Position numbers and translations under genes: made by a program. The notes under the pieces were generated by a model. That model searched no databases, was not told where the DNA came from, and was given only the letters and a program-made list of their open reading frames with translations. From positions 1 through 23,226 of IMG/VR virus record IMGVR_UViG_3300003873_000067: 23,226 bases of DNA; one strand, 5' to 3'. This DNA comes from a virus. Each line of letters opens with the position of its first letter. Position 1 is the stretch's first letter. This document shows positions 10,758 to 21,659 of the stretch, piece after piece.

Positions 10758-11165
10758 ATGGAGACGACTGCAATGAATAGTACGCACGAACGCTATAAAG
10801 AGGCTAAAGACCTTACCGCTAAAGGTAATATGAAAATTATGAGAAGTCTAGTTAAAGACTGGAATTTAGGGCCTACTGCTGCACACAGTAACAACCAAGG
10901 CAACTCTGAGTTCTGGAAGTCTTTAGCGGATAAACTGCATATCGATGTTAAAGCAGCTAGAAGACGTAGCTGTGCTAACTGTGAAAACGGCAATATACAA
11001 CCGCTAGCGTTAAAAGCTATGGAGCATATCCCGTATAACAAATATGATAAAGACGGTGGTATGAGAGTTTGGTGTGAGAAGTTTGATTTTATTTGTCATG
11101 CGACTCGCAGCTGTCAGGCATGGGAAGGTGGTTATGACGGTGATGATGATGTGCTAGACGAGTAA
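10758..11165 (+). CDS. Cys-rich putative metal-binding protein
   Basis: A 135-residue protein with a helical N-terminus and a C-terminal half carrying Cys in the pattern SCANC (C-x2-C), then MRVWC, FICHATRSC and AWEGG, with a His beside the fourth Cys. Four to five Cys/His in this spacing suggest a structural zinc site. Proteins ending in the FDFICHATRSCQAWE type of sequence recur in phages, but I know no tested function. The N-terminal KAARRRSCANC suggests a nucleic-acid-facing basic patch. It has its own promoter and a good ribosome site (AAAGGAAAATACA before ATG). The acidic tail DGDDDVLDE is unusual for a DNA binder. Confidence 0.55.
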   Translation: METTAMNSTHERYKEAKDLTAKGNMKIMRSLVKDWNLGPTAAHSNNQGNSEFWKSLADKLHIDVKAARRRSCANCENGNIQPLALKAMEHIPYNKYDKDGGMRVWCEKFDFICHATRSCQAWEGGYDGDDDVLDE

Positions 11166-11204: not shown

Positions 11205-12566
11205 ATGAAATTATTAAACCTAGTTCAACTATACAAAATTATCAAATCAGGTAACTCAGGAGACTTGAAAGAGTACTCAAAGTCTATGTCACCTACCGAG
11301 GTTAAAGACCTAAGAGTTAACCGTCCTATCATCTTTAAAGTGATTAGATGGATACTTGCTTTCATAGTCCGCAATAAGAAACATAACCTAGCAAATACTG
11401 TACCTACGCCTAGTAAATACTTAGCTAGGGACGAGTACCGTAGTAAGCTTATAGAGTTTAACAAGACTGTTATCGAAACAATACCGTCATGGAATGCTTT
11501 ATCTTTAGACGGTATAGACAACAAATACTTTGTAGTACTTATAAGGAAAGCGGATGGTAGATTTGATGGGTTTGAGGATGCACTACAATGGTCTTGCTAC
11601 CTAGCCACATCTATTAAGAGGGTGTACAGGGTAACTAAAGATGCTTCTTTACTTACGCACTATAATAAGCTAATAAGCGGTATCTCAAGCTGTATAGAAG
11701 CTAAGGATTACTATGCTATTAAACGTCATCCTATAAGCACTATCAAGAAAGATTTAGAGCCTATTAGCCAAGATATGATTAGCGGTCTAGTACTGCTGAT
11801 ATCGGAGTTTGATAAGGATGCAACTAACCCTATAGAAGTAGGCATAAAGCTTAATTTTAACTCTGTTATGCTACATCATGATTACAGATTAATGTATCCT
11901 GATGGTCGTACTGACTCCTATGACCTAGCTCCTAACCTTATCTACAACCATATCAAATCCTTTGCGTATTCCTCTATTAGGATGTCTCAAGGCATGTTTA
12001 GCAAGAATGATGCTAAGGTATTAAAAGCTATGCTGCAGATGCTTATACCAGAGGCTAAACCACCTTATAGTAGAAGTTGGTACGGACTAGTTGTAGCAGT
12101 AAACTTGTTAGACGCTATGATGGGGTTATACCCTAACAACAGTAAGCAAGTAGATAGCGTGATGAGTAAACAGGACTTCCTGCACCTAGCACTAGATTTC
12201 TTGCGTAACCAACAGGCTAGCACACCAGAGATACATCCTGAACTAGAGTCTGTATTACATAGATGCTACGACCTGCTAGGACATAAAGACGGTAAGAAAG
12301 AAACTAGTAGCAGACTACTATCAGTGTTAAACTTATACCCTATGTTCAACCTTGTTGAAAAGCATAACGGCAACCACGCTATGGTAGATGGCTATGATGG
12401 TACATATGCTTTAACACCCCACTTTAGAAGACCTGCTGACTACTATTGGCAACGTTCTGCTTGGAGTACTGGTAGTAGCGATGAGACACACCCTAGTTAC
12501 GAATTTAGTACAGCATTTGCTAGAGTACTGCCGTTTAACTACTACCCAGAAGACACTAATGCCTAG
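11205..12566 (+). CDS. Large hypothetical protein, helical (453 residues)
   Basis: I do not recognise a family with confidence. The protein looks all-helical. A hydrophobic amphipathic helix lies near residues 40-54 (IIFKVIRWILAFIV), and a conserved-looking DGRFDGFEDALQWSCYLATS lies at about 114-133. Many paired helices of 15-20 residues follow, then an aromatic-rich C-terminus (ALTPHFRRPADYYWQRSAW, about 401-419). The aromatic and acidic motifs on a helical frame recall alpha/alpha-toroid glycosidases or lyases, so a surface-polysaccharide enzyme is possible, but no catalytic signature is proven. There is no signal peptide. It lies between the Cys-rich gene and the lysis operon. It could equally be an internal virion protein. 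Confidence 0.6.
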   Translation: MKLLNLVQLYKIIKSGNSGDLKEYSKSMSPTEVKDLRVNRPIIFKVIRWILAFIVRNKKHNLANTVPTPSKYLARDEYRSKLIEFNKTVIETIPSWNALSLDGIDNKYFVVLIRKADGRFDGFEDALQWSCYLATSIKRVYRVTKDASLLTHYNKLISGISSCIEAKDYYAIKRHPISTIKKDLEPISQDMISGLVLLISEFDKDATNPIEVGIKLNFNSVMLHHDYRLMYPDGRTDSYDLAPNLIYNHIKSFAYSSIRMSQGMFSKNDAKVLKAMLQMLIPEAKPPYSRSWYGLVVAVNLLDAMMGLYPNNSKQVDSVMSKQDFLHLALDFLRNQQASTPEIHPELESVLHRCYDLLGHKDGKKETSSRLLSVLNLYPMFNLVEKHNGNHAMVDGYDGTYALTPHFRRPADYYWQRSAWSTGSSDETHPSYEFSTAFARVLPFNYYPEDTNA

Positions 12567-12624: not shown

Positions 12625-12972
12625 ATGGACCAAAACACTGTAGAGCACATCGACGTTGTACATCATAACGACGACCGTCATAGCAATGATGCCAGTAATT
12701 GGCTACCCTTAATAGGTACTGCCGTAACGTTGGTAGTAGGTGGGGTATCTGCATACGTAGCTGTAGAGAATAAGATTACCTCATTAGACCTCAACGTTAA
12801 CTACATAAAGCAAGAACTACAGCATGTGCAGAAAACTATTGACCACAATAGGGACACTATAGATGATACCACTAGAGACCTAAATACTCTTAGCGGTATT
12901 ATATCTAGTAACGAGGCTGATGCTATGCATAGGTATGATGCTTTAAAACAGAGGATAGAACGTAGTAAATGA
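12625..12972 (+). CDS. Membrane-anchored coiled-coil protein (holin-like or accessory)
   Basis: A 115-residue protein. A hydrophilic His/Asp-rich N-terminus (about 27 residues) is followed by one transmembrane segment (WLPLIGTAVTLVVGGVSAYV). A long helix with heptad spacing then runs to the end (SLDLNVNYIKQELQHVQKTI and onward). This is the form of small phage membrane proteins with a coiled-coil tail; in a lysis operon an antiholin, pinholin-like or envelope-tethering role is possible. It is the first gene behind the palindromic promoter and overlaps the PBP-like gene by 4 bp (ATGA), so it is likely needed with it. No family name is claimed. Confidence 0.6.
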   Translation: MDQNTVEHIDVVHHNDDRHSNDASNWLPLIGTAVTLVVGGVSAYVAVENKITSLDLNVNYIKQELQHVQKTIDHNRDTIDDTTRDLNTLSGIISSNEADAMHRYDALKQRIERSK

Positions 12973-13376
12973 ATATACTTATAGCCTTAGTGCTTACTTT
13001 GCTGTCTTTAGCTCCGTATAGCACGTATGCAAATAGCGGGGTGCAACTATATGCTGACGCACCTCCAGCAACTATAACCATACCTGAAGCACGCTTATTA
13101 TTCTCTAAAGAGACCTTCTATAGAGCACGTCATATATACGTACTTCCGTACACCTATAATGAACAAAATAAGTTCGTAGTTAACGTACTTGGTATATCCC
13201 CTACCAGATTTAAAGAAATTGCTACCACATCGAGTAAGTTTATACCTGTACAGTCCTATCAGGGCATGAGAAGTCGCTTGATTAAATGTACCTCTTGTGT
13301 AGGGCTTAGTAAACAATACTTGATGCGGTATGATGTATCCCGTCATAGAGTCATAGCAGTAAGGATAATATACTAA
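12969..13376 (+). CDS. Periplasmic PBP-like (substrate-binding-type) protein
   Basis: A 135-residue protein with a signal peptide (hydrophobic LIALVLTLLSLAP, likely cleaved after TYA at residue 21), so periplasmic. The mature part resembles the short phosphate-ABC-transporter substrate-binding-like proteins of Gram-negative chromosomes. It has the element IPEARLLFSKETFYRARHI, where those have a helix ending in IFLGK, followed by VLPYTYNEQNKFVVNVLGIS, matching their VLP..xFxxxVLGxSP pattern. The family's usual pGaIGYv strand is replaced by IKCTSCVGLS, giving a C-x2-C pair that may form a disulfide. In bacteria such proteins are often encoded next to a porin, as here. Overlaps: 4 bp before it, 1 bp after (TAATG). 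Confidence 0.6.
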   Translation: MNILIALVLTLLSLAPYSTYANSGVQLYADAPPATITIPEARLLFSKETFYRARHIYVLPYTYNEQNKFVVNVLGISPTRFKEIATTSSKFIPVQSYQGMRSRLIKCTSCVGLSKQYLMRYDVSRHRVIAVRIIY

Positions 13377-14524
13377 TGACAAAACTATTTATACCTTTTT
13401 TATTGCTACTGGCGTCTGCCGTTAATGCCGATGTGTCTGGTAGTATTTCCTCTACTGTAATACATTCTAATACTCCTAAAGATACTTTCTACCTTAATGA
13501 GAATAGCTCTACTACTGGGCTATATAATATAGGTACACTAAGCGTAGCAGGCTCTACAGACGATACGGCATTTAAAGCTGTAATATCCAATAGGTATGAC
13601 AGTAGCTTTATAGAGGAGATGTACACAAAAACTACTAAGTACATCACACATAACGTGTACATGTCCTTAAAACTTGGAACACTAGATAACGCTATGGGAC
13701 TATACAACCATAACAACGTAGGTAATCCAAGTATATATCCTCCACAAGGTGTGTACAACTACAATACGCAGAATAGTGTGCTGGAGTACTCTGTAGGAGC
13801 AAAACTAGCACTCAACTACATTACAGATAACTATGATGTCATTTCTATTGTACCTATGTTAGGCAAACAGCGTAACTTGTCTAATAGATGGGCTAACTAC
13901 GCAGGATATGGGTTTGACTCCCCTTACTCGCAGGTAGACGGTGAAGGTAAAAACGTAAGAGGGATAACGTTATCATTTATACGTAATAGCCAATTTAAGC
14001 TGTTTGCTAATTACTTTGAGTCTTCTGTAGACATTAACCCAAAGAAGCGTTTATCAAAGACAGAGCAGTACCTAATATACAAGAAGTCTCCGCATACAGC
14101 AAGTTTCCTAGTTGAAGGCAAATACGATTATAGCGTACATAGGTACGGATTTTGCTCAGAGCATGTAACGTATGCGGTAGGTGCAGAATACTATAAGCTA
14201 GACATCAGAAATAAGAGTAACCATAAACTAGATAGCACATCAGAAGGTAACTATATGTATGCTAGATACTACCTAAACAGATACTACTTATCTCCTTACA
14301 TTATTTATACAGAAGCCCATAAGTACGGTAAAGTGTACTCAAAAACTAGTATACTAGGGTTAAAGTATATGAAGCTAGCCCACATTACACTATCAGCAGA
14401 GTACCATAAAGTAAATTCTAATAGTTGGGTAGAGGCTAAATATCCCACAGAGAGTAGCTTACAGTCTGCTACAAGCGTTAAACCTTTTGATGCCTACTTG
14501 TTTAATTTTACATATGACTTCTGA
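13376..14524 (+). CDS. Outer-membrane beta-barrel porin-like protein
   Basis: A 382-residue protein with a signal peptide (KLFIPFLLLLASAVNA, cleavage likely after residue 18). The mature sequence consists of alternating strands (for example TGLYNIGTLSVAG, HNVYMSLKLGTLD, VLEYSVGAKLALNYI, ITLSFIRNSQFKLFANYFES, TYAVGAEYYKLDI, HITLSAEYHKVNS). It ends in the Phe of AYLFNFTYDF, the terminal signature used by the BAM machinery. The run GLYNHNNVGNPSIYPPQGVYN resembles the constriction-region PPxxVYN element of bacterial porins that are coded beside PBP-like genes. A full-length barrel is present, not a fragment. It should insert in the host outer membrane; effects on permeability, receptors or lysis are inferred. 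Confidence 0.75.
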   Translation: MTKLFIPFLLLLASAVNADVSGSISSTVIHSNTPKDTFYLNENSSTTGLYNIGTLSVAGSTDDTAFKAVISNRYDSSFIEEMYTKTTKYITHNVYMSLKLGTLDNAMGLYNHNNVGNPSIYPPQGVYNYNTQNSVLEYSVGAKLALNYITDNYDVISIVPMLGKQRNLSNRWANYAGYGFDSPYSQVDGEGKNVRGITLSFIRNSQFKLFANYFESSVDINPKKRLSKTEQYLIYKKSPHTASFLVEGKYDYSVHRYGFCSEHVTYAVGAEYYKLDIRNKSNHKLDSTSEGNYMYARYYLNRYYLSPYIIYTEAHKYGKVYSKTSILGLKYMKLAHITLSAEYHKVNSNSWVEAKYPTESSLQSATSVKPFDAYLFNFTYDF

Positions 14525-14714
14525 TACTAAAAATAAAAACATGAGGGCTATGGCGTGGATAGGGTTCTTACACGCTATAGCTACCACTACCTACGCAATG
14601 TTAGCAGGTAAAGAGCTGCCACCTGACTACTATTACTTATTTATAACAGGGGTAATATCTGCGTACTTTGGTTTTAGTAAATGGGGGGAGATTAACGATG
14701 CTAAACATGATTAA
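14514..14714 (+). CDS. Holin-like small membrane protein (two TM segments)
   Basis: A 66-residue protein with a short charged N-terminus and two hydrophobic helices (MAWIGFLHAIATTTYAMLAG and YYYLFITGVISAYFGF) joined by a polar turn KELPPDY. This is the topology of two-segment (class II) holins, which form lesions in the inner membrane. It lies directly before the spanin and endolysin genes. ATG 14514 is chosen over the more distal in-frame 14487 because the extra residues would be encoded deep inside the porin gene; it overlaps the porin by 11 bp. ATG 14541 is an alternative, so a dual start is possible. The role is inferred from topology and context. Confidence 0.65.
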   Translation: MTSDTKNKNMRAMAWIGFLHAIATTTYAMLAGKELPPDYYYLFITGVISAYFGFSKWGEINDAKHD

Positions 14715-15060
14715 GTTACTAGCCCCTATAGCTATACTTGTTATTACGTTCATTACAGGATACCATAAGGGTACTGTAGTTACTGAAACGGCGTATAGGC
14801 TAAAGCTACAAGCGTTACAAGAAAAGAACGCTAAAGACTTATACGCCTTACAGCAAGACCTACTAGATACAGAGAAATCATTATTAGATGATACTAACAC
14901 TGTAGAAGTAAGGTACAAAACTAAAGTAAAGGAAATAGTTAAGTATGTTAATAAAGCATCTACCAATAAAGGTATTTCTCTTAGCGATTGTGAGCTTCCT
15001 GATGACGGGTTGCGTAGGGTTATCTCCGCCTATGGTGAAGAAACCTCCAACAGTAAGTAG
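14698..15060 (+). CDS. Inner-membrane spanin (Rz-like)
   Basis: A 120-residue protein with an N-terminal membrane anchor (MIKLLAPIAILVITFITGYH) and a long charged periplasmic helix (AYRLKLQALQEKNAKDLYAL and onward). It ends in CELPDDGLRRVISAYGE, closely matching the C..P...LR..NA ending of Rz-type i-spanins. The protein pairs with the outer-membrane lipoprotein encoded in the overlapping frame to fuse inner and outer membranes at the last lysis step. ATG 14698 has an excellent ribosome site (GGGGGGAG, 7 bp upstream) and overlaps the holin-like gene by 17 bp. An upstream TTG in frame (14668) is less likely. Confidence 0.8.
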   Translation: MLNMIKLLAPIAILVITFITGYHKGTVVTETAYRLKLQALQEKNAKDLYALQQDLLDTEKSLLDDTNTVEVRYKTKVKEIVKYVNKASTNKGISLSDCELPDDGLRRVISAYGEETSNSK

Positions 15061-15229
15061 CTATTTACTTACTACCTGCAAACCACTAAGCCCTCCAGAA
15101 GATGGGAAGTTTTCTACTATAACAGGTAAACTGGTAGAGACAGTAGGTAAGTATAGAGAATGTCAATTAAAGCAAGAAGCTTTAATACATACGGTTAAAC
15201 GATTAGAGGCGTACATAAAGAGCAACTGA
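14945..15229 (+). CDS. Outer-membrane spanin lipoprotein (Rz1-like)
   Basis: A 94-residue protein in a different frame that starts inside the i-spanin gene and overlaps it by 116 bp, the classical nested Rz/Rz1 layout. It has a lipoprotein signal (IKVFLLAIVSFLMTGC; the lipidated Cys would be residue 23) followed by a Pro-rich start (SPPMVKKPP) and the CKPLSPPEDG and YRECQLKQEALI elements frequent in Rz1-type o-spanins. The mature lipoprotein would sit in the inner leaflet of the outer membrane and contact the i-spanin helix. A ribosome site AAGGA is present 11 bp before the ATG, within the i-spanin gene. Confidence 0.8.
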   Translation: MLIKHLPIKVFLLAIVSFLMTGCVGLSPPMVKKPPTVSSYLLTTCKPLSPPEDGKFSTITGKLVETVGKYRECQLKQEALIHTVKRLEAYIKSN

Positions 15230-15230
15230 T

Positions 15231-15638
15231 ATGAAATATTTTAATGAGAAAGAAGAGAATTTAACTTGTCCTTGTGGTTGTGGTGCCGAACTGGCCCAAA
15301 GTACTAAGGATAAACTAGACGCACTGAGAGAGGCCTACGGTAAGGCCATATACCCAGAACAAGGGGCTACCTGTGAGAGCTATAGTGTTAACCATGTACA
15401 TAGAAAGCCTACAAGTACCCATATAGATAGAGGTACTGGAGGTAAAGCTGTGGATATAAAGAGCAAGACTTTTGAAAGTAAACGTGACTTCTTTCGTTTT
15501 ATCGGCATAGCACAACAATTAGGTTTTAACGGCTTTGGTATAGGGTCATACTGGGTAGGTAATGGTAACGACCATAGATTGCATATAGATACCAAATTCG
15601 GTACCAACAAAGATTTGCGTACATGGGAGTATAAGTAA
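15231..15638 (+). CDS. Endolysin, peptidase M15-like (L-Ala-D-Glu/DD-peptidase type)
   Basis: A 135-residue protein that fits the peptidase M15_3 layout: an N-terminal LTCPCGCGAE element, then STHIDRGTGGKAVDI (zinc His near residue 63 and Asp near 74), GFNGFGIGSYWVG, and RLHID (third zinc ligand near 117), ending in TWEYK. This zinc peptidase type cuts peptidoglycan cross-links or stem peptides. No signal peptide is seen, so export through holin lesions is expected. It follows the o-spanin by one base and is the last gene of the lysis operon. The assignment is good; the exact bond cleaved is unknown. Confidence 0.85.
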   Translation: MKYFNEKEENLTCPCGCGAELAQSTKDKLDALREAYGKAIYPEQGATCESYSVNHVHRKPTSTHIDRGTGGKAVDIKSKTFESKRDFFRFIGIAQQLGFNGFGIGSYWVGNGNDHRLHIDTKFGTNKDLRTWEYK

Positions 15639-20438: not shown

Positions 20439-21659
20439 ATGCCAACTCAAGTTTATGGTAATGGTACAAACAGTTCAGCTGGTGCCAATACAATTATCCA
20501 TTTTTACGACCGTGCAGGGGTAAAAGCCGCTAACCGTGTAAATGTTTATGGTCAGTTCGCTGATCGCAAGTCAATGCCACAGAAGCGTGGAAAGACTTTT
20601 AAAATCTCTAAGTTCATGCACATGTATGACCGTGACCTTACTGCCGCAGACTTTGCCGCTAAAGGTTACCTAACAGCCCGTACAGCTAATCAAGTATCTG
20701 CAGATTTAACTGCCTCTACTTTGGCTGAAGGTGCTGGTGCAGTTAACAAACGTAGCATCAAGAAAATTACTATGGAAACTACCTTAGCTCGCTATGGTGA
20801 GATGATTGAGTATACTGATGAAGTAGAGTTATTCTCTGAAGACGCTATGCAAGTCCGTTATCGTGAAGAGCTAGGTGCCGAAGCTAACTCTAAATGGGAA
20901 GACTTACTACAATTAGATATGCTAGCAACCCCTACAGTATTATACTCTGGCGTAGCTACATCAATCTCTACAGTAGGTAATGGTATTGCTGTTGACGGTA
21001 CACAAGATGACTTATGGAAAGTTTCTTACGACCTTATCCGTAGATCAGTACGTAAATTAGTACGTAACCGTGCTAAGAAAACTACTCAGATTGTTACAGG
21101 GTCTACTAAGGTAGGTACTACCCCAGTAAACGCTGCATACTACGCTATTATCGACTCAGATGTTAAAGCTGACCTTGAAGGTTTAGTACGTGGTGCTGGG
21201 TATGAGCGTGAGTTCGTATTCGTTCCTGTACATAAATATGCAGGTGCTACATCTTTAGCAGAGAACGAAGTAGGTTCAATGCATGAAGTACGTTTTATCG
21301 AGTCAGAAGGAGGAGTAGTCTATGCAGGTATGGGTGCAGCTGTACCAACCGGTTATACTGGTACTTTGGCTTACACTACTTTCGCTACTGCCGCTGATGC
21401 TATTGCCGTACGTGGTGCTGGTGCTACTGCTGGGTCTTACTTTGATGTTCACCCAATCCTTTTCCCAACTCAAGGCTCTTTTGCTACTGTTGGTCTTAAA
21501 GGTCAAGGTAAAATCAACTTTAAAGCTAAGTCTCCAGAACAAGTTGAACTAGCCAATCCATACGGAACTACCGGCTTCTTCTCTTATAACTTCTTCTATG
21601 GTGGCATCATCTTACAAGAAGAGAAACTATTAAAAGTACTAGTTGCTGCAGGTCAGTAA
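20439..21659 (+). CDS. Major capsid protein (N4-gp56-like family)
   Basis: A 406-residue protein of the N4-gp56 capsid type. It shows an early HFYDRAGVKAANRVNVYGQF and RKSMPQKRGKTFKISKF (the strand that positions the N-arm), followed by LTEG-like LAEGAGAVNKRSIKKITMET, LARYGEMIEYTDEVELFSED and LGAEANSKWEDLLQLD. A long middle part follows (RRSVRKLVRNRAKKTTQIVT), then HPILFPTQGSFATVGLKGQG near the end. Length and HK97-like pattern fit. Codons are biased to CGT, GCT and GGT, as expected for the most abundant virion protein. The ribosome site AAAAAGGAAATATT is strong. It ends just before a clear terminator. Confidence 0.9.
   Translation: MPTQVYGNGTNSSAGANTIIHFYDRAGVKAANRVNVYGQFADRKSMPQKRGKTFKISKFMHMYDRDLTAADFAAKGYLTARTANQVSADLTASTLAEGAGAVNKRSIKKITMETTLARYGEMIEYTDEVELFSEDAMQVRYREELGAEANSKWEDLLQLDMLATPTVLYSGVATSISTVGNGIAVDGTQDDLWKVSYDLIRRSVRKLVRNRAKKTTQIVTGSTKVGTTPVNAAYYAIIDSDVKADLEGLVRGAGYEREFVFVPVHKYAGATSLAENEVGSMHEVRFIESEGGVVYAGMGAAVPTGYTGTLAYTTFATAADAIAVRGAGATAGSYFDVHPILFPTQGSFATVGLKGQGKINFKAKSPEQVELANPYGTTGFFSYNFFYGGIILQEEKLLKVLVAAGQ

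Follow-up and report, generated by a model that had tools for sequence, protein, structure and literature searches.

Why a virus would keep, among its lysis genes, a porin gene coupled to the gene of a short exported protein is the question raised by IMGVR_UViG_3300003873_000067, a linear fragment of 23,226 bases that was analysed along its whole length (this stretch, the window, covers the entire IMG/VR record). Its portal gene (phrog_1216, E=6e-197), its terminase gene (a match to phrog_38), its gene neighbourhood and its DNA similarity to Alteromonas phage vB_AmeP_PT11-V19, the record of which includes a 6.2-kb RNA polymerase gene, identify it by sequence as a fragment of an N4-like phage, a label that is read from 23 kb, with the giant virion RNA polymerase region lying outside the fragment. 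The virus is marine and has a bacterial host. An initial annotation had described two adjacent, TAATG-coupled genes encoding an exported PBP-like protein and a full-length outer-membrane barrel ending in Phe, and the open reading frames, the strand, the lengths and the coordinates of the pair are all as given there (Table 1).

An ATGA at 12969-12972, in which the stop of the 115-aa gene overlaps the start of the PBP-like gene, and the ATG of the holin-like gene at 14514, which sits inside the end of the porin gene, indicate that the pair belongs to one overlapping gene chain. After the pair come the 66-aa protein, the i-spanin, the embedded lipoprotein that is a candidate o-spanin, the endolysin and the portal, while the 115-aa protein on the upstream side has weak PHROG matches that include the Rz-like spanin phrog_739 (3.6e-4). 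Spanins and an endolysin thus flank the pair, consistent with the lysis operon to which it had been assigned, and the genes around 12969-14524 are, as judged from their sequences, a phage lysis cassette. A direct role of the pair in rupture of the outer membrane was considered and rejected because a spanin pair is already present in the cassette. No GGDEF, EAL or kinase motif was found in any gene of the 23-kb record, and the PADLOC defence models gave no match. Just upstream of the cassette, 11205-12566 encodes a 453-aa protein that has no match in Pfam, NCBIfam, PADLOC or the related contigs and a best PHROGs value of 0.06, counted as no match. A 135-aa protein of unknown function, encoded by 10758-11165, has one close relative (E=1e-52), found only in the phage contig L072.

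Table 1. Features of the pair and its neighbours in the lysis cassette.
Feature	Position	Strand	Basis or remark
115-aa inner-membrane protein, one transmembrane helix and coiled coil	12625..12972	+	upstream neighbour of the pair
135-aa exported protein, probably VpvB-like (short PBP-like) and diverged	12969..13376	+	two profiles, shuffles, alignment
TAATG stop/start overlap coupling the PBP-like and porin genes	13374..13378	+	sequence
382-aa VpvA-like porin of the outer membrane, 16 predicted strands, ends in Phe	13376..14524	+	HMM, BLASTP, AlphaFold2, Foldseek
Constriction-loop (L3) region of the porin, residues 103-138	13682..13789	+	model and alignment
66-aa holin/lysis-regulator-like protein, two hydrophobic stretches	14514..14714	+	sequence reading
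i-spanin (Rz-like)	14698..15060	+	phrog_2536 7.1e-6
Embedded o-spanin candidate, lipobox LMTGC	14945..15229	+	phrog_2425 1.9e-7 (unknown function), phrog_456 Rz-like 0.0074
Endolysin	15231..15638	+	phrog_894 2.3e-9

The porin begins with a signal peptide (...VNA, followed by D) that can be read from its sequence, and it ends in an alternating aromatic pattern with a final Phe (FDAYLFNFTYDF). Searches with the single sequence and with the curated libraries (Pfam, PHROGs, NCBIfam) gave no match. An HMM of 88 bacterial porins that adjoin short PBP-like genes ranked the phage porin first (E=4.2e-7) among 9,010 ORFs taken from the window and from related phages, with the next best at 0.47, and none of 1000 shuffles of the phage porin reached its score. 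Used alone in a six-frame search of 395 genomes of one order, the phage porin found its best match at 2e-5; this match is itself a porin, encoded immediately after a PBP-like gene, and BLASTP between the two proteins gave 6e-8 over an alignment spanning GLYN...RPSIFLPQSVY. A further search for closer relatives, in 297 genomes of one family, gave no better porin match than the one at 2e-5. The AlphaFold2 model of the porin, built from 40 sequences, has 16 strands (pLDDT 73, pTM 0.75), and Foldseek relates it to the general porins VhChiP, OmpT, OmpC/OmpF and OprP. Structure prediction of both proteins and comparison with the host's chromosomal pairs had been proposed as checks; for the porin, the former returned a beta-barrel, and chromosomal pairs supplied the similarity to a paired porin. 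The mention of DcaP-type barrels was not borne out, and DcaP as the closest porin family was rejected, with nothing in the evidence pointing there.

That such pairs exist on chromosomes, as had been asserted, is confirmed by their tight linkage. A GTDB scan with an alignment of PBP-like proteins returned 80 loci, in 78 of which a porin of the family adjoins the PBP-like gene, and the two exceptions sit at contig ends. Most pairs in Vibrio, Photobacterium and their relatives have the PBP-like gene first, separated from the porin gene by a few bases or joined to it by TAATG, and this overlap of the phage pair recurs in several chromosomal pairs. Among the neighbours at the loci that were read are hybrid histidine kinases, chemoreceptors and GGDEF/EAL proteins. 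Of 369 sampled genomes of one class, 40 have the subfamily that comes closest to the phage porin ('GLYN...RPSI.LPQS.Y'); in 31/31 loci its PBP-like gene immediately precedes the porin gene, which is the gene order of the phage, and a GGDEF protein is adjacent in all ten loci that were read further, usually with dCache_3 and EAL (in one of the ten, the GGDEF gene is on the other strand). Searched with the same profiles, Vibrio genomes yield consecutive genes for a porin, a PBP-like protein and a GGDEF protein, which is the architecture of VpvABC. For Vibrio cholerae VpvABC, a paper that does not mention phages (PMC12456836) describes the porin VpvA and the periplasmic binding protein VpvB as probably forming, without VpvC, a conserved sensing unit. 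By gene content and profile, the chromosomal PBP/porin pairs are the VpvA/VpvB sensing unit of the VpvABC type, an identity that adds to the initial annotation, which had not named VpvABC. The porin encoded by the phage belongs, on profile and sequence similarity, to this VpvA-type paired porin family and is predicted by its model to be an outer-membrane barrel.

In the porin model, the conserved GLYN...PQ.VY motif lies between strands 5 and 6, where general porins have their constriction loop L3. The phage form of this motif is GLYN...PSI.PPQGVYN, in the L3 region (residues 103-138). Compared with 31 relatives, the phage porin keeps G101, G108, Y110, N111, P118, I120, P123, Q124, Y127 and G141. 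The seven charges that are conserved in and around L3 of the relatives (R102, K104, R114, a D, R117, R132 and D140) are all replaced or deleted, with D in place of K104. This pattern suggests that the pore scaffold has been kept and that its selectivity has changed. In a maximum-likelihood tree, the phage porin is a neighbour of the nearest subfamily without being a member of it; its end branch measures 2.94 changes per column, and on so long a branch the position is unsure. Since the conserved charges of the L3 region are absent, and in view of the tree, the phage porin is placed beside the GLYN subfamily rather than inside it.

The small protein has a clear signal peptide (...TYA, followed by N), again read from the sequence. 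Pfam and NCBIfam gave no match for it, and a general short PBP-like profile run over the 9,010 ORFs did not find it. Shuffles scored as well as the small protein in 62 of 2000 cases with the general profile and in 146 of 2000 with the first small profile, and its profile alignments with general PBP profiles lie within the shuffle range and are not significant. A subfamily profile was made from the PBP-like proteins that adjoin the nearest porins, a set picked via the porin alone and not via the small protein. With this profile the small protein ranked 1 of 9,010 ORFs (8.7 bits, E=0.56; 1/2000 shuffles as good), and with a combined profile it held the same rank among the 9,010 (9.9 bits, E=0.21; 0/2000 shuffles as good). 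True members of the short PBP-like family score 141 to 190 bits, indicating that the small protein is extremely diverged. Residues 8-83 of the small protein and the surroundings of M100/G112 align in the correct register, and F69, L74, P78, V94, M100 and G112 are retained. The small protein has neither the near-invariant W..(V/L)FSG.G.P-type core (WDRLVFSGTGQAP), which is the most conserved segment of the short PBP-like family, nor the tyrosine of IGY, and it is therefore called VpvB-like here and not filed as VpvB.

A model of the small protein guided by the PBP-like alignment (pLDDT 72, pTM 0.54) resembles the second domain of PstS-type proteins (top Z 4.9-4.4, rmsd 4.4, 90 residues), with the caveat that the PBP-like proteins in the underlying alignment bias the model towards their own fold; the best Foldseek E value, 0.43, is not significant. 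Matches to the small protein in the 369 genomes of one class were short stretches, mostly with stops. Taken by its sequence, the small protein is a probable, diverged relative of VpvB. The claim of an exported PBP-like protein thus stands in part, the PBP assignment being less secure than was claimed: the signal peptide and the first rank among 9,010 ORFs favour it, and the want of a Pfam or NCBIfam match and the missing core segment tell against it.

Among 80 contigs whose portal is related, a set in which many are partial, neither gene of the pair occurs, and direct searches for homologues of either phage protein found none in phage records, plasmids, IMG/VR or PDB sequences, the sole plasmid row (E=5) being noise. 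Scans of IMG/VR with four bacterial porin/PBP alignments also found no pair gene, with the reservation that such scans depend on short stretches of conservation, so that copies with the divergence of the phage pair would escape them. In GC, GC3 and codon usage, neither gene falls outside the range of the contig's other phage genes. Together, this phage-like composition and the long porin branch indicate that the unit is old or fast-evolving in phages and not a fresh capture. The word 'captured' in the initial annotation, which implies a recent event, is accordingly not supported, and recent capture of the pair from a host was rejected on these same grounds.

Like VpvA-VpvB in V. cholerae VpvABC (PMC12456836, PMC8754643), the phage pair consists of adjacent genes for a porin and a short exported, probably PBP-like protein, and by profile VpvA and the phage porin are of the same porin family. 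Unlike VpvABC, the phage has the order PBP-like then porin and no VpvC diguanylate cyclase in the window, both of its proteins are very diverged, and the context is a lysis cassette. With the gammaproteobacterial PBP-porin-GGDEF-EAL loci (L187-L216, L217-L226; Halomonas L083), the porins of which are the nearest sequence relatives of the phage porin, the pair shares gene order, overlap and the GLYN...PSI.(L/P)PQ.VY loop; it differs from them in carrying no signalling gene, none of the seven L3-region charges and no WDRLVFSGTGQAP core. The pair is probably the phage version of the VpvA porin with a diverged VpvB-like partner, that is, a VpvAB-type unit that lacks a signalling enzyme and has long been resident in an N4-like phage.

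What such a unit might do can be framed by other phage envelope proteins. Lc/NmpC is a general porin of the OmpC type that is carried by lambdoid (temperate) phages near their lysis genes. It resembles the phage pair in being a phage-borne porin near lysis genes, but it is single and has no periplasmic partner. The rI/T lysis inhibition of T4 and gp60-gp63 of N4 tie envelope proteins to lysis timing and superinfection, but as described they include no porin or PBP-like gene (PMC12642591). N4 shows lysis inhibition upon superinfection, its superinfection exclusion system is stated to be uncharacterised, and its own lysis proteins function without a porin/PBP-like pair (PMC12642591).

Both proteins of the pair would be made late, with the lysis proteins, and both would be exported, the porin inserting in the outer membrane and the small protein sitting beneath it as a physical partner. 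Because the pore charges and the core motif of the partner have been lost, the unit has probably departed from its original ligand. It could act at the surface and in the periplasm of the infected cell, excluding or reporting incoming phage or outside conditions, and it could influence lysis timing via the neighbouring inner-membrane proteins. A role of this kind, in exclusion, sensing or lysis control, would suit the position of the pair between inner-membrane lysis proteins and its altered ligand-facing residues, and is put forward tentatively. A more specific version seems unlikely: VpvAB would have been recast as an outer-membrane and periplasmic device of the phage lysis machinery, one that senses or shuts out superinfecting phage, or monitors the environment, and signals to the inner-membrane lysis proteins.

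The pair could also be something else in origin. The small protein has no family match, general profiles fail on it and the hallmark motif is absent, as would be expected if a VpvA-like porin stood beside an unrelated exported protein of the lysis cassette that is not PBP-like. This is countered by the first rank among 9,010 ORFs with two profiles and the correct register, and by the gene order and TAATG coupling, which are as in bacterial pairs, and we regard it as improbable. It would be very surprising if the pair were an assembly chimera in which bacterial genes had been fused to phage sequence: the record is a single metagenomic one, and neither IMG/VR nor the phage records gave a second copy, but the pair overlaps phage genes on both sides, its composition and codon usage are phage-like, and no close bacterial relative was found.

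With respect to function, a permeability or nutrient module would provide a less charge-selective pore during a long infection, with the partner aiding solute capture, as a form of auxiliary metabolism. The barrel and the L3 scaffold are retained in the phage porin, and porin-like barrels, recognised by structure, exist in other, mostly uncultured, phages. The lost charges and PBP core, however, argue against retention of the original solute, the fragment holds no transporter partner, and the location is a lysis cassette and not early or metabolic genes, so that this role is doubtful. The GGDEF gene adjacent in 10/10 of the nearest chromosomal loci read, and the dependence of N4 adsorption in E. 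coli on a c-di-GMP-controlled glycan receptor (PMC8669472), would suit a hijack of host signalling, in which the pair is a decoy or altered input to a VpvABC-like or PBP-porin-GGDEF-EAL pathway and shifts c-di-GMP and possibly the receptor. Against this, the phage proteins are far diverged from every host unit found, and nothing points to use of an Nfr-type receptor by this phage; a hijack is quite unlikely.

VpvAB is thought to be a modular sensing unit of the outer membrane and periplasm that bacteria plug into c-di-GMP enzymes. On the preferred reading of the pair as a VpvAB-type unit without its enzyme, its diverged copy among phage lysis genes suggests that viruses can uncouple this module and put it to their own use. 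The pair is then a specific candidate for the means by which some N4-like phages detect or shut out competitors or set the time of lysis. If the lysis-machinery device were real, it would be a candidate for the uncharacterised sensor of superinfection exclusion or lysis inhibition of N4-like phages, at least in this lineage.

Several minor observations concern related loci. In L006, bases 1484-2005 (portal start minus 3761 to minus 3240) encode a 173-aa exported protein ending ...RWSF that adjoins the spanin genes of this related phage and may be a further example of a small outer-membrane barrel encoded among lysis genes. In L012 and L018, rows of exported proteins (about 165, 130-144, 135-139 and 302 aa) occupy the same general place, about 1.3 to 3.7 kb upstream of the portal. 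On the bacterial side, L187-L226 (G166, G1021, G881 and others) hold a PBP-like - porin module beside a (dCache_3)-(PAS)-GGDEF(-EAL) gene. The PBP-like - porin - GGDEF module, with a gene order unlike that of VpvABC, is found in about 11% of sampled gammaproteobacterial genomes, and a literature search found no paper on the module with such an adjacent gene. L086 and L092-L143 (Vibrio, Photobacterium, Thalassotalea) have the order PBP-like then porin, beside hybrid histidine kinases where read, and some loci (L108, L114, L123) carry tandem PBP-like/porin pairs. Within the window itself, the most unusual codon usage (z 7.7) is that of the gene at 20439-21659, in the position of the major coat protein, and is probably due to high expression.
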